From the NCBI RefSeq assembly GCF_014197445.1, contig NZ_JACIFO010000002.1, positions 1 through 64,000 on the forward strand: 64,000 nt of DNA, given 5' to 3'. Both the position numbers and the translations under genes were made by a program. This DNA is from Mesonia hippocampi. GTDB taxonomy: Bacteria > Bacteroidota > Bacteroidia > Flavobacteriales > Flavobacteriaceae. Under the pieces are notes generated by a model. The model was not told where the DNA came from. It worked only from the letters and a program-made list of their open reading frames with translations, and did no database searches. Of the stretch, positions 1-18,412 are shown one piece after another (position 1 is the first letter of the stretch; each line of letters begins with the position of its first letter).

Positions 1-95
1 GCAGCGGTTTTAAAACTTGCTTTTAAAAATTTCCTTAAAACGGTCTTGACTTTTTGGTTCGTTTTGTGTCAAGACAAAATGAACGGATAATTAAC
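1..95 (+). repeat. Module A of modular hairpin repeat (left end cut by window)
   Basis: This is the right part of the roughly 212-bp A module, which recurs at 1563-1775, 2113-2321, 2533-2748, 4323-4530 and 4865-5074. It carries the 8-bp inverted repeat GTCTTGAC/GTCAAGAC, overlapped by a second inverted pair (GTTCGTTTTGT/ACAAAATGAAC, one mismatch), so two alternative hairpins are possible. The repeat family starts before the window edge. Confidence 0.85.
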
Positions 96-100
96 ATAAA

Positions 101-187
101 CATTCATTTTTTTAGTTCACGACCTTTTATTTGCTAATGGAGCTCATGAATCAACAAAGTTGATTTCATCGATAAAAAAACGAATAG
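101..187 (+). repeat. Modules D+E of the repeat, abutting the rfbB stop
   Basis: D (about 45 bp, beginning with a T-run and AGTTCAC and ending near CATGAAT) carries the hairpin AATCAAC-AAA-GTTGATT. E (about 30 bp) contains ATCGAT followed by an A-run and ACGAATC. The unit ends only a few bases from the rfbB stop codon at 195-197, so it forms the 3' flank of that gene. Confidence 0.8.
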
Positions 188-194
188 TTATAAA

Positions 195-1265
195 TTACTT
201 ATACTGCTTCTCATAATATTGCTGATATGCACCAGAAGTTACATTTTTAAGCCAATCTTCATTATTCAAATACCAGTCGATGGTTTTTTCAAGTCCTTCT
301 TCAAAGGTTACACTTGGTTTCCATCCTAATTCTTTATTTAATTTAGAAGCATCTATCGCATAGCGTAAATCGTGACCTGGACGATCTTTTACAAAAGTGA
401 TTAATTGCTCACTTGTACCTTCCTCTCGGCTTAATTTCGCATCCATCTGTTTACATAGCAACTTTACTAAGTCTATATTTTTCCATTCATTAAATCCTCC
501 AATATTATAGGTTTCTTTGTTTTTTCCTTTATGAAAAATCAAATCGATAGCCACTGCATGATCCACTACATAAAGCCAATCTCGGGTATAATTCCCATCT
601 CCATAAACCGGTAATGGCTTGTTATTAATAATATTATTGATAAATAATGGAATTAGTTTTTCTGGAAACTGGTTAGCTCCATAATTATTAGAGCAATTAC
701 TAATAACATAAGGGATGTTGTACGTCTCCCCAAAAGCCCTTACGAAATGATCTGAGCTTGCTTTAGAAGCAGAATAGGGAGAATTAGGGTCGTAAGCAGT
801 TTCTTCGGTAAACAGTCCTGTTTCGCCTAAGGTGCCATATACCTCATCAGTGCTAATGTGATAAAAAAGCTTCTCGTTGGTATCTGTTCCCCAAATTTGC
901 TTTGCAGCATACAATAGATTTAAAGTACCCATTACATTGGTTTCTACAAACGCAAAAGGATCGGTGATGGATCTATCTACATGTGATTCTGCTGCTAAAT
1001 GAATAACCGCATCAAACTTATAAGTTTCGAATAAGTCTGTAATATATGAACGCTCACAAATGTCTCCTTTTAAGAAATGATAATTTGCAGCCTGCTCTAT
1101 ATCGGTTAAATTCTCCAAGTTACCTGCATAAGTAAGTACATCGAGGTTATATATTTCGTATTCAGGGTAATTGTTTACGAAACGTCTTACAACATGACTC
1201 CCGATAAAACCTGCTCCGCCTGTTATTAATATTTTCTTTGTACTGGTTTTTGATGAGTTTTTCAT
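195..1265 (-). CDS. rfbB: dTDP-glucose 4,6-dehydratase
   Basis: Makes dTDP-4-keto-6-deoxyglucose from dTDP-glucose in the cytoplasm, the precursor of rhamnose and other deoxysugars. It is a 356-residue extended SDR. Visible features are the NAD-binding GGAGFIGSH loop at residues 16-24, the TDE motif characteristic of dehydratases (T139-D140-E141, in HISTDEVYGT) and the catalytic YSASK (Y164, K168). Length fits the family. The first Met gives a short polar extension before the beta strand; a slightly later start is possible but no better Met is present. rfbA, rfbC and rfbD are not in the window and may lie to the left. It is transcribed leftward with the other nucleotide-sugar genes and is separated from ugd by 1.5 kb of repeats. 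Confidence 0.97.
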   Translation of the reverse strand: MKNSSKTSTKKILITGGAGFIGSHVVRRFVNNYPEYEIYNLDVLTYAGNLENLTDIEQAANYHFLKGDICERSYITDLFETYKFDAVIHLAAESHVDRSITDPFAFVETNVMGTLNLLYAAKQIWGTDTNEKLFYHISTDEVYGTLGETGLFTEETAYDPNSPYSASKASSDHFVRAFGETYNIPYVISNCSNNYGANQFPEKLIPLFINNIINNKPLPVYGDGNYTRDWLYVVDHAVAIDLIFHKGKNKETYNIGGFNEWKNIDLVKLLCKQMDAKLSREEGTSEQLITFVKDRPGHDLRYAIDASKLNKELGWKPSVTFEEGLEKTIDWYLNNEDWLKNVTSGAYQQYYEKQYK

Positions 1266-1333
1266 CTTATTCTTAAATTTTTATAGTTTACTGAAAAATA
1301 AAGAACTATAAGGTTAGTTTATATTGGTATGGT

Positions 1334-1407
1334 TTAAAAAATTTCCTTAAAACAGTCTTGACTTTTTGGTTCGTTTTGTGTCAAAACAAAATGAACGGAT
1401 AATTAAC
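1334..1407 (+). repeat. Partial module A
   Basis: Only the last third of module A is present, beginning within its A/T-rich FKNF-like stretch and ending at ATAATTAAC. One stem base differs from other copies (GTCAAAAC instead of GTCAAGAC), which weakens the first hairpin. The truncated left boundary lies inside the module. Confidence 0.75.
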
Positions 1408-1423
1408 ATAAATATTCATTTTT

Positions 1424-1775
1424 TCATCGATAAAAAACGAATCAAAAAATCTAGGCTGCCGAATCTTGTCTTAAATTTATTACTCCGAAGCTAAATTTTA
1501 GAGAACTCGTATTGGCAGGCCAATACTCAAACAGCCTAAAATTTCAACGCTTCTTTCGTGGCAAATTTTACAGACAATTTTCGTGATGCCGAAAAAACCG
1601 ACAGTTTTGCAGAAATAGCTGTAAATCCAGTGGAAGTGCGTCTTTGCTCAGCAAAGACAAAGCATGAAACGCCAGATTTAGCAGCGGTTTTAAAACTTGC
1701 TTTTAAAAATTTCCTTAAAACAGTCTTGACTTTTTGGTTCGTTTTGTGTCAAGACAAAATGAACGGATAATTAAC
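1424..1775 (+). repeat. Repeat unit E-C-A
   Basis: E (1424-1450), C (about 1451-1562) and a complete A (1563-1775). C contains the perfect hairpin GTATTGGC/GCCAATAC at 1509-1526 and a longer-range inverted pair around TAAATTTTA and TAAAATTT. A contains GTCTTTGC-TCA-GCAAAGAC at 1640-1658. The same unit recurs at 2398-2748. Confidence 0.85.
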
Positions 1776-1790
1776 TTTATTGTATTTACT

Positions 1791-2321
1791 TTTTTTAGTT
1801 CACAAATCTTTTATTTGCTAATGGTGTTTATGAATCAACATAAACATTCATTTTTTTAGTTCACAAACCTTTTATTAACTAATGGAGTTCATGAATTATT
1901 CTAAATATTCATTTTTTTTATCGATAAAAAAACGAATCAAAAAAATCTAGTGCCTTTAAAGGAAATTTTTACGAATATATTCGTAAAAACCGCTTATTTG
2001 CTTATCGCTACATGCCATTTTCGCCTATGGCGAAAGCACTTCCGCTTGCAAATAGCTATTTCTAAAGGCCCGGGAAAAATGTATAAATACATTTTTAAAA
2101 AGGTCTTCTTTTTTTACAGACAATTTTCGTGATGCCGAAAAAACCGACAGTTTTACAGAAATAGCTGTAAAGCCAGTGGAAGTGCGTCTTTGCATCGCAA
2201 AAACAAAGCATGAAACGCCAGATTTAGAAGCGGTTTTAAAACTTGCTTTTAAAAATTTCCTTAAAACAGTCTTGACTTTTTGGTTCGTTTTGTGTCAAGA
2301 CAAAATGAACGGATAATTAAC
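1791..2321 (+). repeat. Repeat unit D-D-E-B-A
   Basis: Two D modules (from 1791 and 1849), E (about 1920-1949), B (1950-2110) and A (2113-2321). B is very palindromic: the perfect 24-bp palindrome at 1966-1989, TTTCGCC-TAT-GGCGAAA at 2019-2035, CCCGGG near 2069 and AAAAATGTAT-AA-ATACATTTTT at 2075-2096. The near-identical unit D-D-E-B-A recurs at 4549-5074. Confidence 0.85.
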
Positions 2322-2333
2322 TTTATTGTATTT

Positions 2334-2748
2334 ACTTTTTTTAGTTCACAAACCTTTTATTAACTAATGGTGTTCATGAATCAACAGAGTTGATTTCATC
2401 GATAAAAAACGAATCAAAAAAATCTAGGCTGCCGAATCGTGTCTTAAATTTATTACTCCGAAGCTAAATTTTAGAGAACTCGTATTGGCAAACCAATACT
2501 CAAACAGCCTAAAATTTTAACGCTTCTTTCGTGGCAAATTTTACAGACAATTTTCGGGATGCCGAAAAAACCGACAGTTTTACAGAAATAGCTGTAAATC
2601 CAGTGGAAGTGCGTCTTTGCTCAGCAAAGACAAAGCATGAAACGCCAGATTTAGCAGCGGTTTTAAAACTTGGTTTTAAAAATTTCCTTAAAACAGTCTT
2701 GACTTTTTGGTTCGTTTTGTGTCAAGACAAAATGAACGGATAATTAAC
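2334..2748 (+). repeat. Repeat unit D-E-C-A
   Basis: D (from 2334), E (about 2398-2427), C (to 2532) and A (2533-2748). The C hairpin reads GTATTGG-CAAA-CCAATAC at 2482-2499: the stem is preserved relative to 1509-1526 and only the loop differs. D has AATCAAC-AGA-GTTGATT. Confidence 0.85.
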
Positions 2749-2761
2749 TTTAGTATACTTA

Positions 2762-2803
2762 CTTTTTTTAGTTCACGAGCTATTTATTAGCTAGTGGTGT
2801 TTA
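2762..2803 (+). repeat. Module D overlapping the ugd stop codon
   Basis: A single D module (T-run, AGTTCACGAGC, then GTGGTGTTTATG) runs into the ugd gene. The complement of the ugd stop codon at 2801-2803 is part of the TTTATG end of the module. The module thus contributes the stop codon or ends exactly on it. Confidence 0.75.
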
Positions 2804-4195
2804 TGCTTTTCCGATAGCATAATACTCAAAACCTATTGCTTTTAATTCTTCTTCCTTAAGAATTTTTCTTCCATCAAAAACAAAGGCAGGTTTTTTCATG
2901 GTATCATAAATACGTTTCCAATCGTAAGTGGTAAATTCATCCCACTCGGTTAAAACAGCAATAGCATGTGCATCTTTACAAGCTTCATAAGGATTGTTGA
3001 CTACTTGTAATTGCGCTTTGTTTTCTTCCTCTGTACGCGTATTAAGTGCATTTAAATCGGTATAGATCTGATGTGGTTTTACCTTAGGATCATATACTTG
3101 TATTTCAGCTTGTTCCTCTAGTAATAAATCGGCTACATAAATAGCAGCTGATTCGCGTGTGTCGTTTGTATCTTTTTTAAACGCCCATCCTAAAAATGCT
3201 ATTTTTTTCCCAGAAACCGTATTGAAAAGTGTGCTTACAATATTTTCTGCAAAACGCCTTTTCTGGTGGTCGTTCATAATAATTACTTGCTCCCAATAAT
3301 CTGCAACATTGTCTAAGCCTAAGGATTTAGCAATATACACCAAATTCAAAATATCTTTTTGAAAACAAGACCCTCCAAAGCCTACCGATGCTTTAAGGAA
3401 TTTAGGTCCAATTCTAGAATCCATCCCAATAGCCTTTGCTACTTCACTTACATCGGCTCCTGTTGCTTCACAAAGCTCTGATATAGCATTTATCGAAGAT
3501 ACACGTTGTGCTAAAAATGCGTTTGCCGTAAGTTTAGATAACTCTGATGACCATACGTTGGTGGTAAGTATATTTTCTTGTGGAAGCCAAGCTGCATAAA
3601 TATCAACTAGTGCCTGAATGGCTTGTTTTCCTTCTGCACTTTGCTCCCCGCCTATAAGTACACGATCTGCTTGTTCTAAATCTTGAATTGCAGTGCCTTC
3701 AGCTAAAAATTCAGGATTGGAAAGAATTTGAAACTTTACACCATTACCTGTTTGGTCTAAAATAGTTTTTATAGCTTGTGCTGTACGTACAGGCAATGTT
3801 GATTTTTCGACTACTATTTTATCGCTCGTGGCAACATTTGCGATTTGACGTGCACATAATTCTACATATTTTAAATCGGCAGCCATATTTTTACCTTTCC
3901 CATAGGTTTTTGTTGGGGTATTTACCGAAATAAAAATCATTTCTGCTTCATCTATGTTTTTTTCTATTTCGGTAGAAAAAAATAAGTTTCTTCCACGAGC
4001 TCTTGCAACAACTTCAGACAAGCCTGGTTCATACACTGGAAGTTCATCTAAATTTTCACTATTCCATGCTTTTATTCTTGCTTCATTAATATCTACTACC
4101 GTTACTTGTATCCCTGGGTTTTTATCGGCAATAACAGACATGGTAGGACCTCCTACATAACCGGCTCCGATACAGCATATCTTTTTTATTTTCAT
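2801..4195 (-). CDS. ugd: UDP-glucose 6-dehydrogenase, animal-type
   Basis: Oxidises UDP-glucose twice with NAD to UDP-glucuronic acid for acidic polysaccharide. It has 464 residues. The Rossmann motif GAGYVGGPT is at residues 10-18 and the catalytic cysteine C277 sits in [10 protein letters not shown]. The spacing and wording ([12 protein letters not shown] near the start, YEPGL, DPYEAC-like, IFDGR-like near the end) resemble human UGDH, whose catalytic Cys is at 276, more than the short bacterial Ugd of about 390 residues. This type is known in Bacteroidota. The gene is isolated between two repeat tracts and is probably part of the leftward polysaccharide operon. Confidence 0.96.
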
Positions 4196-4267
4196 GCTTA
4201 TATATGTATTGGTTTATTCAATTTATTTTAAAAAAGAGTTTCTTGTTTAATTATGTTTATGTGTTAT

Positions 4268-4530
4268 GATTATTCATTTTTTTTAGTCCACGAATCTTAT
4301 CTTAAATTTATTACTCGGAAGCTAAATTTTACAGACAATTTTCGTGATGCCGAAAAACCGACAGTTTTGCAGAAATAGTTGTAAATCCAGTGGAAGTGCG
4401 TCTTTGCATCGCAAAGACAAAGCATGAAACGCCAGATTTAGCAGCGGTTTTAAAACTTGTTTTTAAAAATTTCCTTAAAACGGTCTTGACTTTTTGGTTC
4501 GTTTTGTGTTAAGACAAAATGAACTGATAA
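4268..4530 (+). repeat. Repeat unit: partial C fused to A
   Basis: The left part of C (CGAATCTTATCTTAAATTTATTACTC and onward) jumps directly to ACAGACAATTTTCG of module A, skipping the middle and right of C. The junction falls at the shared AAATTTTA string, as expected for recombination between C and A. The A hairpin here has stem GTCTTTGC/GCAAAGAC with loop ATC. It forms a direct repeat with 2412-2748 on the other side of ugd. Confidence 0.8.
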
Positions 4531-4548
4531 CATTCTTTATTATACTTA

Positions 4549-5074
4549 CTTTTTTTAGTTCACGAATCTTTTATTCGCTAATGGTGTTTATGAATTATTC
4601 TAAATATTCATTTTTTTAGTTCACAAATTTTTTATTAACTAATGGAGTTCATGAATCAACAGAGTTGATTTTATCGATAAAAAAACGAATCAAAAAAATC
4701 TAGTGCCTTTAAAGGAAATTTTTACGAATGTATTCGTAAAAACCGCTTATTTGCTTATCGCTACATGCCATTTTCGCCTATGGCGAAAGCACTTCCGCTT
4801 GCAAATAGCTATTTCTAAAGGCCCGGGAAAAATGTATAAATACATTTTTAAAAAGGTCTTCCTTTTTTACAGACAATTTTCGTGATGCCGAAAAAACCGA
4901 CAGTTTTGCAGAAATAGTTGTAAATCCAGTGGAAGTGCGTCTTTGCACCGCAAAGACAAAGCATGAAACGCCAGATTTAGCAGCGGTTTTAAAACTTGCT
5001 TTTAAAAATTTCCTTAAAACAGTCTTGACTTTTTGGTTCGTTTTGTGTCAAGACAAAATGAACGGATAATTAAC
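4549..5074 (+). repeat. Repeat unit D-D-E-B-A
   Basis: Second copy of the 1791-2321 arrangement: D at 4549 and about 4610, E about 4670-4702, B 4703-4862, A 4865-5074. The E junction here is a perfect TTTTATCGATAAAA palindrome. The A hairpin loop is ACC instead of TCA, with the stem intact. The 24-bp palindrome of B has a central A-to-G change. Confidence 0.85.
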
Positions 5075-5088
5075 ATAAATATTCATTT

Positions 5089-5314
5089 TTTCATCGATAA
5101 AAAACGAATCAAAAAAATCTAGTGCCTTTAAAGGAAATTTTTACGAATGTATTCGTAAAAGCCGCTTATTTGCTTATCGCTACATGCCATTTTCGCCTAT
5201 GGCGAAAGCACTTCCGCTTGCAAATAGCTATTTCTAAAGGCCCGGGAAAAATGTATAAATACATTTTTAAAAAGGTCTTCCTTTTTTACAGACAATTTTC
5301 GTGATGCCAGAAAA
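5089..5314 (+). repeat. Repeat unit E-B-A1 (inverted partner at 9795-10017)
   Basis: E (about 5089-5121), B (5122-5281) and only the first 30 bases of A, ending GATGCCAGAAAA. The copy at 9795-10017 on the opposite strand ends with the same GATGCCAGAAAA junction, so this is a natural unit boundary and not random truncation. By eye the two copies differ at only about six positions over roughly 220 bases. Confidence 0.85.
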
Positions 5315-5320
5315 AATTGT

Positions 5321-5433
5321 ATTAGTTCACAAACCTTTTATTTGCTAATGGTGTTCATGAATCAACAAAGTTGATTTCAGCCCAACCGACAGTTTTGCAG
5401 AAATAGCTGTAAATCCAGTGGAAGTGCGTCTTT
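5321..5433 (+). repeat. Module D followed by partial module A
   Basis: D (AGTTCACAAACC to GTTGATTTC) is followed directly by an internal part of A (ACCGACAG to GTGCGTCTTT). With the preceding unit it looks like an A module split by a D module between GATGCC and ACCGACAG. The A part stops in the GTCTTTGC arm, so its hairpin is lost. Confidence 0.75.
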
Positions 5434-5467
5434 TGTTTTCTATAATAAAAAACCTTCCTTAGAAAAA

Positions 5468-6751
5468 TTACAGCCTTGCGTCTACGATTTCTCTTGGTAA
5501 ACAAGCTTTCACATCAAAAACAACTGCGTTATCTTGAAGCAGGGTTTTTATATCCATTGCTAAAAACTGCTGATGTGCTACGGCTAAAACAACAGCATCA
5601 TATTTCTTTTTAGGTATGTCTTTTACAATAGACACCCCATACTCTTCTTCTACTTCTGTTGGGCTTGCCCATGGGTCGTATAAATCTACATTAAGTCCGT
5701 ATTGTTTAAGCTCTGAATAAACATCGATTACTTTTGTATTTCTAATATCAGGGCAATTTTCTTTAAATGTTACCCCTAGAATAAGCACATTAGCATCTTT
5801 AATCTGATGGCCTTTTTTAATCATCAGTTTAACAACTTTACTACCTATAAAGTTTGCCATCGTATCATTCACCCTTCTTCCTGAAAGAATAACTTGAGGA
5901 TGATAACCTAACTGAATAGCCTTATGACTAAGGTAATAAGGGTCAACCGAAATACAATGTCCACCAACAAGACCTGGCTTATATTTCAAAAAGTTAAATT
6001 TAGTTCCTGCTGCTTCCAAAACATCTTGTGTATCGATGCCTACTCTATCAAAGATTAAAGCCAGTTCGTTTACAAATGAAATATTTACATCTCGCTGTGC
6101 ATTTTCTATAGCTTTACTTGCTTCTGCTGTTTTTATGTTTGCTGCTAAATGTGTGCCTGCTTTTATAATTTTTTTATATAAATTATCTATTTCTACTCCA
6201 ATGGCTGGCGTACTTCCCGAGGTTACCTTTTTTATGGTTGTAAGCGTATTTACCTTGTCGCCAGGTACAATTCTTTCTGGCGAATACCCTACATAAAAGT
6301 CTTTATTAAACTTTAAACCTGAAATATTTTCTAAAATAGGCACACAAACCTCTTCTGTACAACCTGGATATACCGTACTTTCATAGATAACAATATCATC
6401 TTGTTTAAGCACTTCGCCCAACATCTTTGAGGCACTTTTTAAAGGCCTTAAATCTGGTGCATTAAACTGATCTATAGGTGTTGGCACTGTAACAATATAG
6501 ATGTTAGCCTCTTTTAAAACAGCAATAGCTGAACTTGCCAAATAACCTTTTTTAAAACCTGTTTCCTCTTTATCTTGAATTACATTACGCAACAAATCTA
6601 AATCTGCTTCTAACGTATGGTCTTTTCCTTCATTCAACTCAGCTACTCTTTCTTCATTAATATCGAAGCCTATCACTGGATAATGTTTTGCAAATTCTAA
6701 GGCTAATGGTAAACCTACGTATCCTTGTCCTATAATTGCTATTTTTTTCAT
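5468..6751 (-). CDS. UDP-N-acetylhexosamine 6-dehydrogenase (TviB/WbpO type)
   Basis: Nucleotide-sugar dehydrogenase that oxidises C6 of a UDP-N-acetylhexosamine to the uronate with NAD. It has 427 residues, with Rossmann motif GQGYVGLPL at residues 8-16 and catalytic C266 in VGGHCISVDPYYL. The wording YESTVYPGCTEE and the GGHCISVDPYYL form point to the TviB/WbpO branch (UDP-GlcNAc or UDP-GalNAc) over WecC. Substrate cannot be fixed from sequence. It lies 44 bases downstream of wecC in the same leftward operon. Confidence 0.93.
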   Translation of the reverse strand: MKKIAIIGQGYVGLPLALEFAKHYPVIGFDINEERVAELNEGKDHTLEADLDLLRNVIQDKEETGFKKGYLASSAIAVLKEANIYIVTVPTPIDQFNAPDLRPLKSASKMLGEVLKQDDIVIYESTVYPGCTEEVCVPILENISGLKFNKDFYVGYSPERIVPGDKVNTLTTIKKVTSGSTPAIGVEIDNLYKKIIKAGTHLAANIKTAEASKAIENAQRDVNISFVNELALIFDRVGIDTQDVLEAAGTKFNFLKYKPGLVGGHCISVDPYYLSHKAIQLGYHPQVILSGRRVNDTMANFIGSKVVKLMIKKGHQIKDANVLILGVTFKENCPDIRNTKVIDVYSELKQYGLNVDLYDPWASPTEVEEEYGVSIVKDIPKKKYDAVVLAVAHQQFLAMDIKTLLQDNAVVFDVKACLPREIVDARL

Positions 6752-6795
6752 GGGTATACTTACTTTAGTTGTGTTTTCTAATAATATATTGGGGT

Positions 6796-8013
6796 TTATT
6801 TTGCTGTAATTCCGCAGAAATCGAGTACAATTTTTCCGGAAGGAATTTCTAAGCCTGAAAATTCTTTATGGGCTACTAAAAAAGCGATAATATCTGCCTT
6901 AGCTATAGCTTCTTGATAGGTGGTTAATTTAAAAACTTGATGTGCTTGAATATTTGGTTCTACAATATAGTATGCTTCATCTTGTGCTTCTTGAAGTACT
7001 TTTTGTACAATGTATTTTGCTGGTGATTCCCTTAAATCGTCGATATTAGGTTTAAAAGCCAATCCCATTAAAGCAATGGCTGGCGTACGTCCTTTTTTCA
7101 ACTGAAATTCATGCTTTGCCTTTTTAATTTGCTCGGCACACCAAAAGCTTTTATAGTTATTTATTTCTCTTGCCTTTCCGATAATTTGAGATTCCATAGG
7201 AAAGTCTGAGGTAATAAAATAAGGGTCAACAGCTATACAATGTCCGCCTACACCACAACCGGGTTGTAAAATGTTTACCCGAGGGTGTTTGTTGGCTAAT
7301 GTTATCAGTTCCCAAACGTTGATACCTGCTTTATCGCAAATCAACGAAAGCTCATTAGCAAAGGCTATTTGTACATCTCTACTAGAGTTTTCGGTAAGTT
7401 TACACATTTCGGCAGTACGTGCGTTGGTAGGGTGCAAAGCTCCTTTTACAAACTGCTGGTAAAATGCTACAGCTTTTTGTGTACTCACCTCATCTACGCC
7501 ACCTATTACACGGTCGTTATGGACAAGCTCGTACATTACATTTCCTGGCAATACCCTTTCTGGGCAATAGGCTAGAAAAATTTCGCCTTCCAGTTCTGGG
7601 CGTTCCCTAAAAATAAGCTCTTGCATTTTTTCGGTAGTCCCTACGGGAGAGGTAGATTCTATAATGTATAAATCTCCTTTTTTCAATAAAGGGATGATTC
7701 CTTTTGTAGCGGCTTCTACATAAGAAATATCAGGCTCATGATTCCCTTTAAAAGGCGTTGGTACAACTATCAGGTAAGTATCAGCAGCAACAGCTGCTGT
7801 ACCGGCTTTAAAATAATTGTCCTGCACCGCTTTATAAACCACCTCTTCTAAATCGGGTTCTACAATATGTATTTTCCCTTTGTTGATGGTTTCTACAACT
7901 TCGGGGTTTACATCTACCCCAAAAACAGCAATTTTATTGGCTGCAATTAATGCCGAGGTGGGTAATCCTATATAGCCTAACCCAATGGTGGTTACTTGTG
8001 GGCTTATCGTCAT
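6796..8013 (-). CDS. wecC: UDP-N-acetyl-D-mannosamine dehydrogenase
   Basis: Oxidises UDP-ManNAc, made by the adjacent WecB, to UDP-ManNAcA. It has 405 residues. GLGYIGLPTSA is the NAD loop at residues 11-21 and C259 is the catalytic Cys in GVGGHCIAVDPYF. Long stretches match the known E. coli WecC pattern, for example HIVEPDLE, VPTPFKG, CPERVLPG and KHPRVNILQPG. The gene order HTH-wecB-wecC supports the assignment, with a 37-base gap to wecB. Confidence 0.95.
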   Translation of the reverse strand: MTISPQVTTIGLGYIGLPTSALIAANKIAVFGVDVNPEVVETINKGKIHIVEPDLEEVVYKAVQDNYFKAGTAAVAADTYLIVVPTPFKGNHEPDISYVEAATKGIIPLLKKGDLYIIESTSPVGTTEKMQELIFRERPELEGEIFLAYCPERVLPGNVMYELVHNDRVIGGVDEVSTQKAVAFYQQFVKGALHPTNARTAEMCKLTENSSRDVQIAFANELSLICDKAGINVWELITLANKHPRVNILQPGCGVGGHCIAVDPYFITSDFPMESQIIGKAREINNYKSFWCAEQIKKAKHEFQLKKGRTPAIALMGLAFKPNIDDLRESPAKYIVQKVLQEAQDEAYYIVEPNIQAHQVFKLTTYQEAIAKADIIAFLVAHKEFSGLEIPSGKIVLDFCGITAK

Positions 8014-8050
8014 TTTATTTTTTATTTAATTACTTAAAAAGCTACACAGC

Positions 8051-9184
8051 TTAAACTAAACTATTTAACTCTTTTATATGCTGAACAATTTTCTTACAAG
8101 CATTACCATCTCCATACGGATTATGCAATTTACTCATGGTAGAAAAACGTTCTTTATCGGTTAGTAAACTTGTTGCTTCCGTTATAATCTTATCAACATT
8201 TGTACCAACCAAAATTACAGTTCCTGCTTCTACAGCCTCTGGCCGCTCTGTGGTGTCTCGCATCACTAAAACAGGCTTCCCTAGACTTGGAGCTTCTTCT
8301 TGTACTCCTCCACTATCGGTAATAATAAGTTTAGACCTATTCATCAACCAAATAAAATCTTGATAAGCTAATGGCGTTATTAAATGTATGTTGGAAATGT
8401 CTCCTAAAATTCTATTTACCGGCTCTTGTACCTTTGGGTTTAAATGTACGGGGTAAACCAATTGCGTTGTAGGATTTGTTTCTGCAATATGTTTTAAAGC
8501 TTTACAGATACGTTCAAATCCATCACCATGATTTTCCCTTCTATGTCCTGTTATTAAGATTACCTCTTTACCTGCTAACTTAGCTTCTAAACTTTGTACA
8601 TAATCGCTAGGTTCTTTGTTTACTTTTTCTACGGAAGTTAACAATGCATCGATAACCGTATTTCCTGTAACAACAATGGTTTCGTCTGGAATATTTTCTT
8701 GCAGCAAGTTGTTTTTTGATGTTGGTGTAGGAGCAAAGTGAACATCGGCAATACGTCCTGTAATTTGCCTGTTTATTTCCTCTGGAAAGGGCGCTCGTTT
8801 ATGATGTGTACGCAAACCTGCTTCTACATGGCATACCTTTGCTCCGCCGTAAAAACCAGCAATACTCCCTGCCATAGTCGTTGTAGTATCACCATGAACA
8901 TAAATATAATCGGGAGTAAAATCTTCTAAAACAGGTTTTAACTGTACAATAATATTTGCCGTAAGTTCATATAAATTTTGCCCTGGCTTCATAAGATTTA
9001 AATCATAATCGGGAGTAATCTCAAAAAAAGCCAAAACTTGATCTAGCATTTCCCTATGCTGAGCGGTAACACATACTTTTGTTTCAAAAAGTTCATTTTC
9101 TGCTTCAAAGGCTTTTACCAAAGGAGCCATTTTTATAGCCTCTGGTCTTGTACCAAATAATATAAGATTTTTTACTTTCTTCAT
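8051..9184 (-). CDS. wecB: UDP-N-acetylglucosamine 2-epimerase (non-hydrolysing)
   Basis: Interconverts UDP-GlcNAc and UDP-ManNAc, feeding WecC. The protein begins [16 protein letters not shown]. The motifs [28 protein letters not shown] and SDSGG-type [16 protein letters not shown] are all present. The open frame extends 12 codons further to a TTG at 9220, but that would overlap the upstream gene. The ATG at 9184 leaves a 20-base gap and places the first beta strand normally, so it is preferred (377 residues, usual for the family). Confidence 0.96.
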
Positions 9185-9204
9185 AAATAAATTACTTAAG
9201 CTAA

Positions 9205-9738
9205 CTAACCTACATGCCAAATAAGTAAAGGCTTATCTTGTTTAGCCTGTAAATACTTTTCTTCGTTTTCTGGTGACAACAAAACATAGCGTATAGGTTT
9301 TTTTACTACTTTTTCTGCTTTGCTTATTAATTGTGTTAAATATTGCCTGTCGATATGATTTCCCACCAATATTAAATCGATCACCTCTGGAGTTAAGCCT
9401 CTGGCTAATTTCCCTTCTATATATACCCGTTCTAGGTTTCCTATTTTTGTAACTACACTAGCTATAATTTCATCTATTCCCACATATTTACGAACAATAT
9501 TCTGCATCTCTTCAAACAAAGGATGCTGCGTATTGGCTTTAAAATACTTACGATTACCTTCTTTTGTACTGGAAAGCATCCCTGCTTCTTCAAAACGATT
9601 TAATTCTATACGAATAGCGTTTGTGCTTTCACCAAACTCGCCTTCCAAACTACGTAAATACGCACGGCTATTGCTGTTTAAAAAAAACTTAAGCAATAGT
9701 TTTATTCTAGTTTTTGAACTTATTAAAGTTTCTAACAT
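9205..9738 (-). CDS. Winged-helix protein with degenerate nucleotidyltransferase-like domain
   Basis: It has 177 residues. The first 70 form an ArsR/MarR-like winged helix ([12 protein letters not shown], ending in [11 protein letters not shown], the wing). Residues about 95-165 resemble the MNT-type nucleotidyltransferase fold ([13 protein letters not shown], then IDLILVG), but the GS dipeptide and first metal Asp expected for an active enzyme are not evident, so it is probably non-catalytic. It sits directly upstream of wecB and is the first gene after the inverted repeat copy. It may regulate the locus; this is inferred from the domain and location only. Confidence 0.75.
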
Positions 9739-9794
9739 AGTTACAATAAAAAATGTAGAAAATAATTTAGATTATATACTTACTGATGTACTAG

Positions 9795-10045
9795 TTTTCT
9801 GGCATCACGAAAATTGCCTGTAAAAAAGAAAACCTTTTTAAAAATGTATTTATACATTTTTCCCGGGCCTTTAGAAATAGCTATTTGCAAGCGAAAGTGC
9901 TTTCGCCATAGGCGAAAATGGCATGTAGCGATAAGCAAATAAGCGGCTTTTACGAATGTATTCGTAAAAATTTCCTTTAAAGGCACTAGATTTTTTTGAT
10001 TCGTTTTTTTATCGATGAAATCAACTCTGTTGATTCATGAACTAA
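9795..10045 (-). repeat. Inverted repeat unit (E-B-A1 plus end of D)
   Basis: Read on the minus strand this gives the end of D with hairpin AATCAAC-AGA-GTTGATT, E, B and the first 30 bases of A ending GATGCCAGAAAA. It is the only copy in this orientation and matches 5089-5314 nearly base for base. The pair flanks the winged-helix/wecB/wecC/TviB block. All B hairpins are intact, including AAAAATGTAT/ATACATTTTT. Confidence 0.85.
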
Positions 10046-10066
10046 AACAAAAATCAGATTATATCT

Positions 10067-10132
10067 TTATTTCAGGTAAGGTAATTCTTCCCATAGCTCC
10101 GCCTCCTCAGTCCCATAAACTAAGTAAAACAT
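10067..10132 (-). CDS. Possible 21-residue peptide after the UpxY-like gene
   Basis: Short open frame starting MFYLVYGTEEAELWEE and ending at TAA, 14 bases downstream of the UpxY-like gene on the same strand and just before the inverted repeat copy. The peptide has a hydrophobic start and an acidic middle. It may be a leader peptide, part of another repeat, or chance. No family is recognised. Confidence 0.25.
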   Translation of the reverse strand: MFYLVYGTEEAELWEELPYLK

Positions 10133-10146
10133 GTACTAGAAAAGAC

Positions 10147-10632
10147 TTAAGACTTTTCTATTTGCGCCTTAGGAATCACTACTTTTAGCATAACGCCTAA
10201 TTGCTCTATATATAAGGAAACGTTTTTCGTAGTTTGTTGAAAAACGACTCCTTTTCGGGTTTTAAAAACCCCTTGATTTACGCGTACAACATCGCCTGTT
10301 TTTATCGCCTCCACCTTCAACTCTTCCGTTTTATACGTAGAGAAAAAAGCTTGTACTTCTGCCATCTCTGCATGAGTTATGACTACGGGTTTATGTAGCC
10401 AAAATACAAAGTTAACCACGCCTGGGGTTTGTAACACACTTAATCGCTGCTTCTCTGTTAGCTTAACAAACACGTAAGACGAAAAATAAGGCACGTAAAC
10501 TTTCTTCTTTCGATCACTCCATTGACGAACTTGCATTTGTAACGGACAAAATACCTCAAACCCCTTTTGTTCAAGACGTTCGGCAACTTTTTTCTCCGCT
10601 TTACTTTTTACATAGACAACACGCCATTCCAT
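10147..10632 (-). CDS. UpxY/RfaH-like NusG paralogue (antiterminator)
   Basis: A 161-residue specialised NusG. The NGN domain covers residues 1-100 (WRVVYVKSKAEKKVAERL and the YVPYFSSYVFVKL core) and the C-terminal KOW domain begins at GDVVRVNQGVFKTRKG. In Bacteroidota, UpxY-type proteins at the head of polysaccharide operons let RNA polymerase read through the locus. It is the first gene of the leftward cluster behind a good promoter. It probably acts on the downstream sugar-nucleotide genes and must cope with the long hairpin-rich spacers; that target is inferred. Confidence 0.88.
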   Translation of the reverse strand: MEWRVVYVKSKAEKKVAERLEQKGFEVFCPLQMQVRQWSDRKKKVYVPYFSSYVFVKLTEKQRLSVLQTPGVVNFVFWLHKPVVITHAEMAEVQAFFSTYKTEELKVEAIKTGDVVRVNQGVFKTRKGVVFQQTTKNVSLYIEQLGVMLKVVIPKAQIEKS

Positions 10633-10664
10633 AAACGAGTAATTTTACTACTCAAAGTTAATAG

Positions 10665-10699
10665 CAAATATATTTTTTTAATTTTAGAAATCAAACAAA
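10665..10699 (-). promoter_or_regulatory. Bacteroidota-type promoter of the polysaccharide operon
   Basis: On the minus strand, TTTG (complement of CAAA at 10692-10695, or alternatively 10696-10699) is followed after 19 bases by TATATTTG (complement of 10665-10672). This fits the Bacteroidota TTTG-N19-TANNTTTG consensus. The start would be near 10658, giving a leader of about 25 bases before the UpxY-like gene. Confidence 0.65.
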
Positions 10700-10804
10700 C
10701 TTTAAATTAAATATAAGTTAAGTCATCAGCACTTTTAACATTAAAACTTCAATAGAAACACAACAATACCTGTATATTGTACCTCTAATATTTAAATTTA
10801 TACT

Positions 10805-12283
10805 ATGAAAAGAAATTATGTGTTTTATTTACTTGCTTTGTTTGCATCGGCAAACATCTTTGCACAAGGCTACACCTCGCCAAATACTGGCGACACCTAC
10901 ACGCTTAATGACATTGCTTTAGCAGACTCTAGCACCTTGGTTAAAAACGGAACTTCGTACACACTTTTACAAGATTTAACCATTGCAGAAAACGACGCGC
11001 TTGAGGTTACTGAAAGCATAAGCTTAGCGATAGCTGAAGGTGTACGCATCACCATAGACGGTACATTAAACTGGAATCCCCCTACCACTGGAGCTACTGT
11101 AGATGCTTTAACCGCTGGAACTACTTATGATGGATTCTGGTTTGGTCAAACTTCCAACATCAATATCACAAACAGCTCTTTTATAAACGGTGGAGGATTT
11201 AAAGTAACTACAGCTAATTTCTATATGGAAAACTGTACTGTTATGTATATGGTTTCAGGAGCCTCTACTGGTGCAGCAATCTCTTTATCTAGAGGAGCAC
11301 CTGTAATAGAAAACAACCTTATTATGTACAACGATCTTCCTGCAATAGCTTCTGGTGCAAACCAAACAGTTAGCGCAACCATTCGTGGAAACTACATTGA
11401 AGGAAATACAAAAAGCAACCAAAACAGACCTCAGCTAAACCTTAGCATCACAGGAACAGATACTTTACGTGTTATAAACAATGATATTATTGGCGATGTT
11501 ACCTTAGATAAAGTAGGTGGAATTGCCATTTCTAACTTTATAGGAGATGGTGCAGAAATTAGAGCAATTATCCAAGGAAATACCATAGAAAACAACCGTT
11601 ACGGAATAACCATAAGCGGAAGCAACGTAAACGCGCTAATAAAAAACAACACCATAGAAAACAACAACACGCAAGGCCTACCTAATTTAGGAGGAAGTGG
11701 AATATCATTACAAAGTAACGATGACACACAAACTGTTGTAGCCAGAAACAACCATATAAAAGGAAACCTTTGGGGAGTTACATTACTTGCTAAAGGTAGA
11801 ATTGATTTAGGAACAGCAGACGATTACGGGCATAATACTTTTTCTGAAAACGGAAACAATAATACTAGCTATTCGTTATACAACAACACCACCAATAATA
11901 TTACGGCTATTTATAACTGCTGGGAAGAAGGTGTTAGCTTTGACACCGCTGCAGATGTAGACCAATACATTGTACATGCCAACGATGATGCTAGCTTAGG
12001 AACGGTTACTTTTGAGCCTTTTGATTGTGCCAGCATGAGCATAGATACCTACACTACGCAAGTTAACTTCTATCCTAACCCTAGTCAAGATGTTTTAACA
12101 ATAGAAAACACACAAGGCTTTGATACGGCAGCGATCTATAACCTAAACGGACAACTAGTAGCATCTTACAACCTAAACGAAGGAACAAATACAATAAGAT
12201 TCGCTTTAACTACTGGGGTTTATTTTATAAAATTCAACAGTACAAAGAACAAAGGCATAACTAAAAAACTACTTGTTCAATAA
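10805..12283 (+). CDS. Secreted right-handed beta-helix protein with type IX sorting tail
   Basis: It has 492 residues. A signal peptide (KRNYVFYLLALFASANIFAQ) precedes a body rich in repeated N-rich parallel beta-helix turns such as IENNLIMYND, IRGNYIEGN, IQGNTIENNRYG and IKNNTIENNNT, a fold typical of polysaccharide lyases and related proteins. The last about 75 residues (VNFYPNPSQDVLTIEN to the Lys-rich end KKLLVQ) are a Por secretion-system C-terminal sorting domain, so export through the type IX system is expected. No catalytic residues can be assigned. Its position between the two halves of the polysaccharide locus suggests, but does not prove, an action on surface glycan. Confidence 0.88.
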   Translation: MKRNYVFYLLALFASANIFAQGYTSPNTGDTYTLNDIALADSSTLVKNGTSYTLLQDLTIAENDALEVTESISLAIAEGVRITIDGTLNWNPPTTGATVDALTAGTTYDGFWFGQTSNINITNSSFINGGGFKVTTANFYMENCTVMYMVSGASTGAAISLSRGAPVIENNLIMYNDLPAIASGANQTVSATIRGNYIEGNTKSNQNRPQLNLSITGTDTLRVINNDIIGDVTLDKVGGIAISNFIGDGAEIRAIIQGNTIENNRYGITISGSNVNALIKNNTIENNNTQGLPNLGGSGISLQSNDDTQTVVARNNHIKGNLWGVTLLAKGRIDLGTADDYGHNTFSENGNNNTSYSLYNNTTNNITAIYNCWEEGVSFDTAADVDQYIVHANDDASLGTVTFEPFDCASMSIDTYTTQVNFYPNPSQDVLTIENTQGFDTAAIYNLNGQLVASYNLNEGTNTIRFALTTGVYFIKFNSTKNKGITKKLLVQ

Positions 12284-16483: not shown

Positions 16484-18412
16484 ATGAATGCTTTAAAAAA
16501 ACAGAAGGTATTTTTTACTAGGTTCTTTGTAAACCTATTTAAACCCCTTGTAAACAATTATGTAAACAGAAACATTATTCTGTTAATCGATTTAATTATC
16601 ACTTTAATCGCTGCAAAAAGCGCCTCTTTTCTAGTAGCAACAATTACCGATACGCCTTTTAACTTTTTAAAATTTCGATGGGAAATTTTGGTAATCATTC
16701 TGGTACAAGGCATTTGCTTTTTGTTATTCCGCTCTTACTCAGGACTTATACGATACTCAAATTTCAGGGATGTTATTAAGCAACTTCAAGTAACCACTAC
16801 TTCGGTTATTTTATTAATGCTTATTAATTTTCTATATGCTTTAAACTTTGGAGAAGTAATAACACCATACGCAGGAATTGTTATTTATGGTTTTATAGCG
16901 TTCTCGTTTTTATTCATCTTTAGGTTATCTGTAAAACGTGCGTATAAAATAATTCAAATCAATAAAGTTAAAGCTCAAAAAGCCTTTATTTTAGGAATAA
17001 AACCTAACGATATTTCTATGGCAGAGGGCTTCATCTCTGAAAGCAGCGAACAAGTTGAAATAATAGGTTTTGTAAATACCGAAGAGAAAATTTTACGTAA
17101 ATTAATATTCAACCTTCCCATTTATAGTTTAGAACAAATAAAAAACAGCTCTAACGCCCCTAAAAACATTATTGTTAGCGACGAAAAACTTAAAGAACTT
17201 CGCAACAGCAATAGCGACGTTATCCCCACATTACTCGACTTAAAATTTAAAATATACAAGCTCCCTGAATTACAAAACCTTGCCGAAAACAACAAGCAAC
17301 CCTCTGGCGCTTTAAAAGAAATAAAAATAGAAGATTTACTACAACGAAATCCTATAAAATTAAACAACGAAAAATTATTTGATTTATATAAAAACAAAAC
17401 CATCCTTGTAACAGGAGCTGCTGGATCTATAGGAAGTGAAATTGTAAAACAGGTAATCCGATTTAAACCTAAAAAAATACTTCTGTTGGACCAAGCAGAA
17501 ACCCCTTTACACGAACTGTGTATTTGTTTAAATAAATTTTACCCAGAAATAGGTTACGAAAAAATTGTCGCTAACGTCCGTGATAAAAAACGCCTAAAAG
17601 ATGTTTTTACCACTCATCAGCCTCAAGTAGTATTTCACGGTGCCGCATATAAGCATGTCCCAATGATGGAAGAAAACCCGATAGAGGCACTTAGTGTAAA
17701 CTTTCAAGGCTCTAGAAACCTTGCTGACTTAGCCACAAAACACAAGGTAGAAAACTTTGTATTTATCTCTACCGATAAGGCAGTAAACCCCACCAATATT
17801 ATGGGAGCATCTAAACGCTCCGCAGAGCTTTACATACAATCACTCGCACACAAAAACAATCACAATACCACTTTTATAACCACTAGGTTTGGAAATGTAT
17901 TAGGCTCAAACGGCTCGGTAATCCCACATTTTAAAAAGCAAATTCGTGAAAATGGCCCTGTAACCGTAACGCATCCCGAAATAACTCGTTATTTTATGAC
18001 TATTGATGAAGCCTGCCAACTTGTACTAGAAGCTGGCGCCATGGGAAAAGGAGGCGAAATTTTTGTTTTTGACATGGGCTCTCCAGTAAAAATACTAGAC
18101 CTTGCAAAACACATGATTCGATTAACAGGACTTGTTCCTGGAAAAGATATCGAAATTGAGATAACAGGCTTGCGTCCAGGAGAAAAATTATACGAAGAGC
18201 TACTTGCAGACAAAGAAACAACCCTGCCTACACATCATGAAAAAATAATGATTGCCCAAGCTACTCATGAATTTAACGAAACTAAAATAAACCTTTTAAG
18301 CAATCTTTTAGAATTGGTAAAAACCAATAATGCAGACAAAGCGATAGAAGCATTACACCTATTGGTACCAGAATACCAACCTGCTAGCTTAGACGAACAA
18401 TTAAAAGCTTAA
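16484..18412 (+). CDS. Membrane-bound UDP-HexNAc 4,6-dehydratase (WbpM/PglF/CapD type)
   Basis: Makes UDP-4-keto-6-deoxy-HexNAc for polysaccharide or glycan. It has 642 residues: four hydrophobic segments in the first about 155 residues, a CoA-binding-like domain, then an SDR domain from about 305 with TGAAGSIGSE and the FHGAAYKHVPMMEENP motif. The catalytic site reads STDKAVNP followed by MGASK, so it has the S-M-K triad of the long WbpM branch in place of Tyr. Transcribed away from the export genes and ends at a strong terminator. Confidence 0.94.
   Translation: MNALKKQKVFFTRFFVNLFKPLVNNYVNRNIILLIDLIITLIAAKSASFLVATITDTPFNFLKFRWEILVIILVQGICFLLFRSYSGLIRYSNFRDVIKQLQVTTTSVILLMLINFLYALNFGEVITPYAGIVIYGFIAFSFLFIFRLSVKRAYKIIQINKVKAQKAFILGIKPNDISMAEGFISESSEQVEIIGFVNTEEKILRKLIFNLPIYSLEQIKNSSNAPKNIIVSDEKLKELRNSNSDVIPTLLDLKFKIYKLPELQNLAENNKQPSGALKEIKIEDLLQRNPIKLNNEKLFDLYKNKTILVTGAAGSIGSEIVKQVIRFKPKKILLLDQAETPLHELCICLNKFYPEIGYEKIVANVRDKKRLKDVFTTHQPQVVFHGAAYKHVPMMEENPIEALSVNFQGSRNLADLATKHKVENFVFISTDKAVNPTNIMGASKRSAELYIQSLAHKNNHNTTFITTRFGNVLGSNGSVIPHFKKQIRENGPVTVTHPEITRYFMTIDEACQLVLEAGAMGKGGEIFVFDMGSPVKILDLAKHMIRLTGLVPGKDIEIEITGLRPGEKLYEELLADKETTLPTHHEKIMIAQATHEFNETKINLLSNLLELVKTNNADKAIEALHLLVPEYQPASLDEQLKA

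Follow-up and report, generated by a model that had tools for sequence, protein, structure and literature searches.

A dispersed repeat family of Bacteroidota with two covarying folds, one common 3' tail and a possible role in messenger RNA

What are the inverted, hairpin-rich repeats that stand among the polysaccharide genes at the start of contig NZ_JACIFO010000002.1 of Mesonia hippocampi (assembly GCF_014197445.1)? In the stretch analyzed, positions 1 to 64,000 of that contig (64,000 nucleotides; hereafter the window), they form tracts at 1-185, 1330-2805, 4259-5450 and 9795-10043; these total about 3.1 kb, far above chance, and one example of paired arms, 4646-4867 with 9822-10043, spans 222 nt at 97% complementarity. 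A sequence-only reading had divided the tracts into five independent modules, A to E, behaving as exchangeable cassettes. The order A-D-E-(B or C)-A that it described is indeed present, as is a hairpin-rich mosaic family extending across the genome and to relatives, but what looked like modules are complete elements that alternate in orientation: B is homologous to inverted A, E belongs to inverted B or C elements as their tail, and the junctions that come up repeatedly (E before B or C; GATGCC) are the 3' tail and 5' end of elements.

These elements are of two types. Type 1 is about 166 bp long (model R1, 166 positions) and has a branched fold; module A is its plus-strand copy, and E+B is the same type inverted, with E as its tail, since R1 matches A on the plus and B on the minus strand. 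Type 2 is about 178 bp long (model R2, 178 positions) and folds into a long rod with internal loops; E+C is an inverted copy. Both folds end in the same 3' tail, preceded by the 3' arm of the closing stem: a U-rich linker, (C)TTGAYTTTTTG, and a hairpin, GTTCGTTTTGT-GTCAAG-ACAAAATGAAC; the hairpin loop base-pairs with the linker. From 12 diverse copies aligned with MAFFT, RNAalifold recovered only 16 pairs, and the structures were therefore built from single folds mapped by hand, using 10 copies for R1 (four from M. hippocampi and six from five other genomes) and seven for R2 (two from M. hippocampi). By reading, the element ends, CCGAC... and ...ATGAAC, are not complementary, and there are no terminal inverted repeats.

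Covariation is very strong for both folds. The 62 type-1 hits come from 45 chosen sources, and 61 are distinct; paired cells make up 89.0%, against 67.9% when shuffled; double changes occur in 53 of 57 pairs (shuffled, 38.7), and double-change cells number 666, against 204 shuffled and 117-201 slid. Type 2 (47 hits, 44 distinct, 32 chosen sources) has 94.2% of cells paired against 61.9% shuffled, double changes in 57 of 58 pairs (shuffled, 43.7) and 683 double-change cells, against 198 shuffled and 73-109 slid. We conclude that the structures are under selection. Rfam 15 at its gathering threshold returned three tRNA matches and nothing else from 16 loci, and in a permissive search (window 1-12000 at E 5; six loci at E 2) no family fits the elements; types 1 and 2 are two strongly supported structured-RNA families that were not found in Rfam 15 here.

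Pairing between linker and hairpin loop is likewise longer than expected, with a mean run of 5.10 over 52 distinct pairs compared with 4.43 (sd 0.085) after permutation, none of 2000 permutations being as high; examples are CTTGAC/GTCAAG, CTTGAT/ATCAAG and CTTGAA/TTCAAG, and the B tails of M. hippocampi pair over 3 bases only. Either a pseudoknot or an alternative hairpin could account for this pairing; that the tail forms a U-rich triple helix is only a guess. The model strand is moderately favored as the acting strand because G-U cells exceed A-C cells, 187 to 61. A T5 run within 12 nt after the tail is found in 0 of 62 type-1 and 1 of 47 type-2 hits, and we reject intrinsic termination on this ground.

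The elements recur throughout the M. hippocampi genome, where a query with window 4259-5450 gives 111 matches across 13 of the 26 contigs. The window together with 20 stretches surrounding the first matches (234,929 bases) holds 23 near-complete type-1 elements (>95 bits) and 14 of type 2 (>80 bits), and orientation alternates in 21 of 23 neighboring pairs within blocks, counting matches at E 1e-6 or better and including cut and tail-only copies. Contig C2 begins, with the window, inside a repeat copy, and C13, C17, C19 and C23 likewise start or end in copies; the draft assembly thus breaks at these repeats, and the order of blocks may be affected by assembly. The repeats of the window and four of the genes beside them are as follows (element scores from R1 or R2, genes from Pfam).

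1-84, plus: type-1 element (module A), 5' truncated by the contig end; R1 84.5 bits, model positions 83-166
106-185, minus: D unit plus the tail remnant of an inverted element; repeat family D5 and sequence
195-1265, minus: NAD-dependent epimerase/dehydratase (dTDP-glucose 4,6-dehydratase-like)
1325-1396, plus: type-1 remnant, mainly tail; R1 58.1 bits
1414-1590, minus: type-2 element (modules E+C), tail uninterrupted; R2 175 bits and tail reading
1598-1764, plus: type-1 element (module A); R1 180.8 bits
1790-1906, minus: two D units after the tail of the next element; D5 spacing 61 and tail reading
1907-2073, minus: type-1 element (modules E+B); R1 119.6 bits
2144-2310, plus: type-1 element (module A); R1 165.3 bits
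2336-2390, minus: D insert within the A-run of the next tail; tail reading
2389-2563, minus: type-2 element (modules E+C); R2 152.5 bits
2571-2737, plus: type-1 element (module A); R1 181.2 bits
2801-4195, minus: UDP-glucose/GDP-mannose dehydrogenase family
4358-4524, plus: type-1 element (module A), with a type-2 remnant directly before it (by eye); R1 174.7 bits
4550-4663, minus: D units, one interrupting the next tail; D5 spacing 61 and tail reading
4664-4826, minus: type-1 element (modules E+B); R1 104.3 bits
4897-5063, plus: type-1 element (module A), tail core at about 5030-5063; R1 177.4 bits and 34-mer match
5081-5245, minus: type-1 element (modules E+B), tail uninterrupted; R1 122.8 bits and tail reading
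5317-5433, plus: remnants, a D unit and a 5' type-1 piece; families D5 and D6
5468-6751, minus: UDP-glucose/GDP-mannose dehydrogenase family
9863-10025, plus: type-1 element (module B), D-interrupted tail; R1 99 bits and tail reading
10147-10632, minus: NusG-like protein next to polysaccharide genes

In most cases module D is an insert of 46-61 bp lying in the tail of an inverted element, or a unit that follows that tail. We classed, by reading, 25 such tails from the M. hippocampi stretches, 20 found by a first pattern and five by a wider one: 11 are interrupted by D in the A-run of the hairpin, six are intact and followed by a D unit, and eight are without D. In L032 one tail variant occurs both with and without the insert, side by side, near 17946 and near 6579, and at an orthologous site the tail is intact in Winogradskyella eximia while in W. 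ludwigii its T-run is interrupted by 46 bp; genome G029 has a similar interruption by eye. D thus behaves like a small insert favoring the tail.

The tail also marks the family far beyond Mesonia. The last 34 bases of module A match exactly in 47 stretches of genomes of other GTDB species, among them Winogradskyella, Wenyingzhuangia, Psychroflexus, Polaribacter, Cytophagales, Sunxiuqinia and Dysgonomonas sp. 520 (17 stretches); 27 of the 47 were taken further, the others being 16 of the 17 from Dysgonomonas (partly masked) and L094, L116, L120 and L123. Presence is patchy across the phylum. With M. hippocampi included, and with the stricter filters used for searches over more than 40 genomes, R1 has matches in 69 of 149 genomes sampled within the family and in 43 of 198 sampled across Bacteroidota, and R2 in 20 of the latter 198. 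Upstream of the shared tail the sequences differ between genomes, many still with a similar fold: bodies from different genomes have a mean identity of 0.49 and a maximum of 0.73. Within genomes copies are closer, 11 chosen A copies of M. hippocampi being 93.4-98.8% alike. Of 24 copies from elsewhere, 19 are most similar to another copy in their own genome; 15 of the 24 come from two genomes. At L078, L082, L088 and L114 (Cytophagales and other Bacteroidetes) the 34-base tail follows still other bodies, and more than two body types therefore probably exist. Among relatives we also saw tandem, same-orientation arrays of type-2-like units (L077:7471-9475, L064:6215-7769, L065:1639-6765), with a period of about 365 at L077 and mostly about 335 at L064 and polysaccharide-type genes nearby by reading. 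Three type-2 copies share an extra flank of about 70 bp (ACAGTCGTACTGTCAGGG...; L038:6033-6100, L038:8899-8966, L039:6711-6778), which is an additional repeat unit. A single 191-base query, window 4880-5070, has no match in plasmid or phage collections, and we reject an origin from either.

Where the elements sit suggests what they may do. They are intergenic, and among chosen loci outside M. hippocampi type 1 tends to lie in the sense direction of the gene before it. We took 56 chosen type-1 hits, 51 with both neighbors, where a neighbor is a simple open frame no shorter than 90-100 aa; the flanks of the 51 are ++ in 29, +- in 11, -- in six and -+ in five. The 5' neighbor is in the sense direction in 41 of 52 loci (P = 3.6e-5), and in 40 of 51 compared with 59 of 110 background gaps (Fisher P = 0.003). 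Twelve of 31 closely read type-1 hits fall within trp, kynurenine, phenylacetate or znu-type operons; the 31 were picked mostly for co-directional neighbors, which makes the operon cases at least 12 of the 56. Copies separate genes of one operon at trpD|trpC, trpB|trpA, paaA|paaB and rmlC|rmlD and, by reading, at KMO|RidA (KMO, kynurenine monooxygenase), further paa gaps and znuA|znuC. NCBIfam searches with 70-residue pieces support TrpC, TrpD, TrpB, TrpA, PaaA, PaaB, a thiolase, a metal-binding lipoprotein and RmlC; the kynurenine monooxygenase piece has general flavoprotein matches only, so KMO, like RidA-like, ZnuC and other names, is given by our own reading. One genome, G178, carries copies in trpD|trpC, in KMO|RidA, in two paa-like gaps and downstream of a znuA-like gene. 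Counted with their 25-base flanks, the KMO|RidA copies of three genera are 77-84% alike, and changes in one arm of the closing stem are matched in the other; the trpD|trpC bodies are more different (54-83%), and these copies may therefore be separate arrivals or conversions. At L037:11434-11523 a stretch of 60-90 bp next to an HxlR-like gene (by eye) has many matches in same-genus genomes and holds no tRNA by ARAGORN.

In the window the polysaccharide setting proposed from sequence holds: the adjoining genes encode the epimerase/dehydratase, three UDP-sugar dehydrogenases, a UDP-GlcNAc 2-epimerase and the NusG-like protein (Pfam). It does not extend genome-wide, as other M. hippocampi copies adjoin genes for a PIN protein, a ParE toxin, a Bro-N protein and an AAA/DUF4143 protein, and confinement to polysaccharide genes is rejected. 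A 177-aa protein at window 9205-9738 is without a Pfam match; its by-eye look-alike in another genome (L263) adjoins a Wzz-like frame and a type-1 element.

We suggest, with a probability of about one half, that these are dispersed structured-RNA repeats that act through mRNA like intercistronic bacterial interspersed mosaic elements (BIMEs) and have multiplied without a gene of their own. The elements would be transcribed as parts of mRNAs and fold on the RNA, where they would probably serve as protected 3' ends or as processing or stability blocks, uncoupling the expression of neighboring cistrons. A role of this kind has been hypothesized for repetitive extragenic palindromic (REP) sequences and BIMEs (PMC3733652). 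Head-to-head and tail-to-tail stacking in M. hippocampi would then yield BIME-like arrays. Several points weigh against this proposal. Transcription of the elements and an effect on mRNA are steps that we infer. The covariation alignments are model-fitted and contain the model-building sequences, and so lean towards structure, although the margins are still large; the G-U excess weakens to 82 against 57 if pairs in which G-U is the most frequent type are excluded. Type 2 has little orientation bias (++ 8, +- 7, -+ 4, -- 4), 16 further type-1 loci from across the phylum are unbiased (5' neighbor sense in seven, antisense in six), and the A elements of the window are antisense to the adjoining genes, which a role in mRNA does not predict. 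Finally, so patchy a presence, with R1 in 43 of 198 genomes under strict filters, speaks against any general function in the cell.

The chief rival holds that the repeats are purely selfish, non-autonomous mobile DNA, whose fold and tail, as RNA or single-stranded DNA, are recognized by a copying enzyme acting in trans, and whose position after genes reflects only tolerated insertion. We regard this as possible, if less probable. The within-genome families and the different bodies with one common tail speak for it, as does a comparison at one block of M. hippocampi: in 14 same-genus genomes the gene before that block is followed by a terminator (by eye), and neither model matches there (0 of 14). 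The sequence-only reading had proposed looking for empty sites in relatives; element-free relatives exist, and no clean element boundary emerges because the next gene often differs. For target-site duplication we found only the 46-bp insert in a tail, and no single-base empty site of a whole element. Several genera carry elements in the same operon gaps, which is unlike random insertion, and the plasmid and phage collections hold no match to the query from the window. Nor has an enzyme come to light among the candidates. The transposase domain Y1_Tnp (PF01797), the partner type that had been proposed, has no match in M. hippocampi and is present in 24 of 60 sampled genomes; it gives none in the carriers G036 (one contig, 13 R1 matches), G008, G039, G012 and G046, the flanks of relatives' existing Y1 genes not having been examined. 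The reverse transcriptase domain RVT_1 also has no match in M. hippocampi and is present in 22 of the 60, with several carriers lacking it, Y1_Tnp or both. We therefore reject both as partners: neither a REP-associated tyrosine transposase (RAYT) nor a reverse transcriptase of these Pfam models explains the present M. hippocampi copies. A DUF6266-like protein, near five loci by eye and named by Pfam in one of three tested, occurs in 17 of the 60 genomes, with one copy in M. hippocampi, and is rejected as well. Beside the window arrays, as the sequence-only reading stated, there is no transposase gene among nine proteins tested (Pfam), and the repeats are not, as far as seen, the remnant of one insertion sequence. 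Two genes near elements outside the window are noted in passing: an ordinary insertion-sequence DDE transposase gene (DUF772, DDE_Tnp_1; L039:9002-10072), 2.0 kb from a type-2 copy, and a Cas9 gene (RuvC_III, HNH_4, Cas9 bridge helix; L073:18-4457, genome G005) about 0.9 kb from an element cluster.

An unlikely extension is that the common pseudoknot tail is a recognition end, by which one Bacteroidota-wide machine would spread different structured RNAs in trans, among them type 1, type 2 and the other bodies from Cytophagales and further loci, in the way that a partner's enzyme spreads the short retroelements of animals, some copies then being co-opted as regulators of trp, kynurenine, phenylacetate and znu operons. 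We think it more improbable still that the repeats are recombination substrates retained for shuffling polysaccharide genes, an outgrowth of the cassette idea: arrays do adjoin such genes here and, by open-frame reading, in some relatives, and contigs end inside copies, but many copies lie in trp, paa, kynurenine and znu-type operons and at toxin-antitoxin loci, and homologous recombination needs neither covarying stems nor a conserved loop-linker pairing. Single-stranded-DNA recombination sites resembling integron attC seem highly improbable; folded, strand-specific sites downstream of genes, some near cassette-like ParE, PIN and Bro-N genes, would suit them, but an attC hairpin is unlike this branched body with its conserved internal loops and loop-linker pairing, and the positions within housekeeping operons also count against them.

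Our searches of the open-licence PubMed Central literature gave no account of this family, and several known repeats resemble it in part. Like REP/BIME sequences with RAYT, as described in PMC2817692 and PMC3733652, the elements are dispersed, intergenic and palindromic, form alternating arrays, often lie between co-directional or convergent genes and are mosaic with other repeats. Those units, by the same sources, are 20-40 bp hairpins with a GTAG/CGTC tag; the present ones have 166-178 positions, 57-58 pairs, branched or rod folds and a pseudoknot-like tail with the linker TTGAYTTTTTG, and a Y1 transposase match is absent from M. hippocampi and several carriers. They thus seem to work like BIMEs while differing from RAYT-linked REPs in two defining respects, partner and unit. 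Lacking terminal inverted repeats, they also differ from miniature inverted-repeat transposable elements. Of listed motifs, Flavo-1 (RF01705) comes closest in kind though not in sequence: according to PMC2864571 and PMC9723704, it too is a multi-copy structured Bacteroidota motif of unknown function, found sense and antisense of transcripts, but it has 76 positions and another sequence, and 12 hits read by eye have no such tail. It has no match at six element loci (E 2) or in window 1-12000 (E 5) and one match in the M. hippocampi genome; Flavo-1 and other Rfam families are rejected as the identity of the elements, as none matches at them. Flavo-1 is itself a dispersed structured motif, with 70 occurrences in genome G071. 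The bcr1-bcr18 repeats of the Bacillus cereus group (PMC3446304) are likewise intergenic repeats in untranslated regions and operon gaps, about half of them in transcripts and some with predicted conserved RNA structure; they were described in Bacillus, and the comparison made here is one of descriptions.

These results add two structured-RNA families with a common 3' tail to Bacteroidota, in which post-transcriptional control is poorly known, and explain the class of repeat at which the draft assembly breaks. They name operons, trpD|trpC, KMO|RidA, paa and znu, that allow a direct test of an effect. Should the tail prove to be a mobilization signal, it would reveal an unknown mechanism of spreading.

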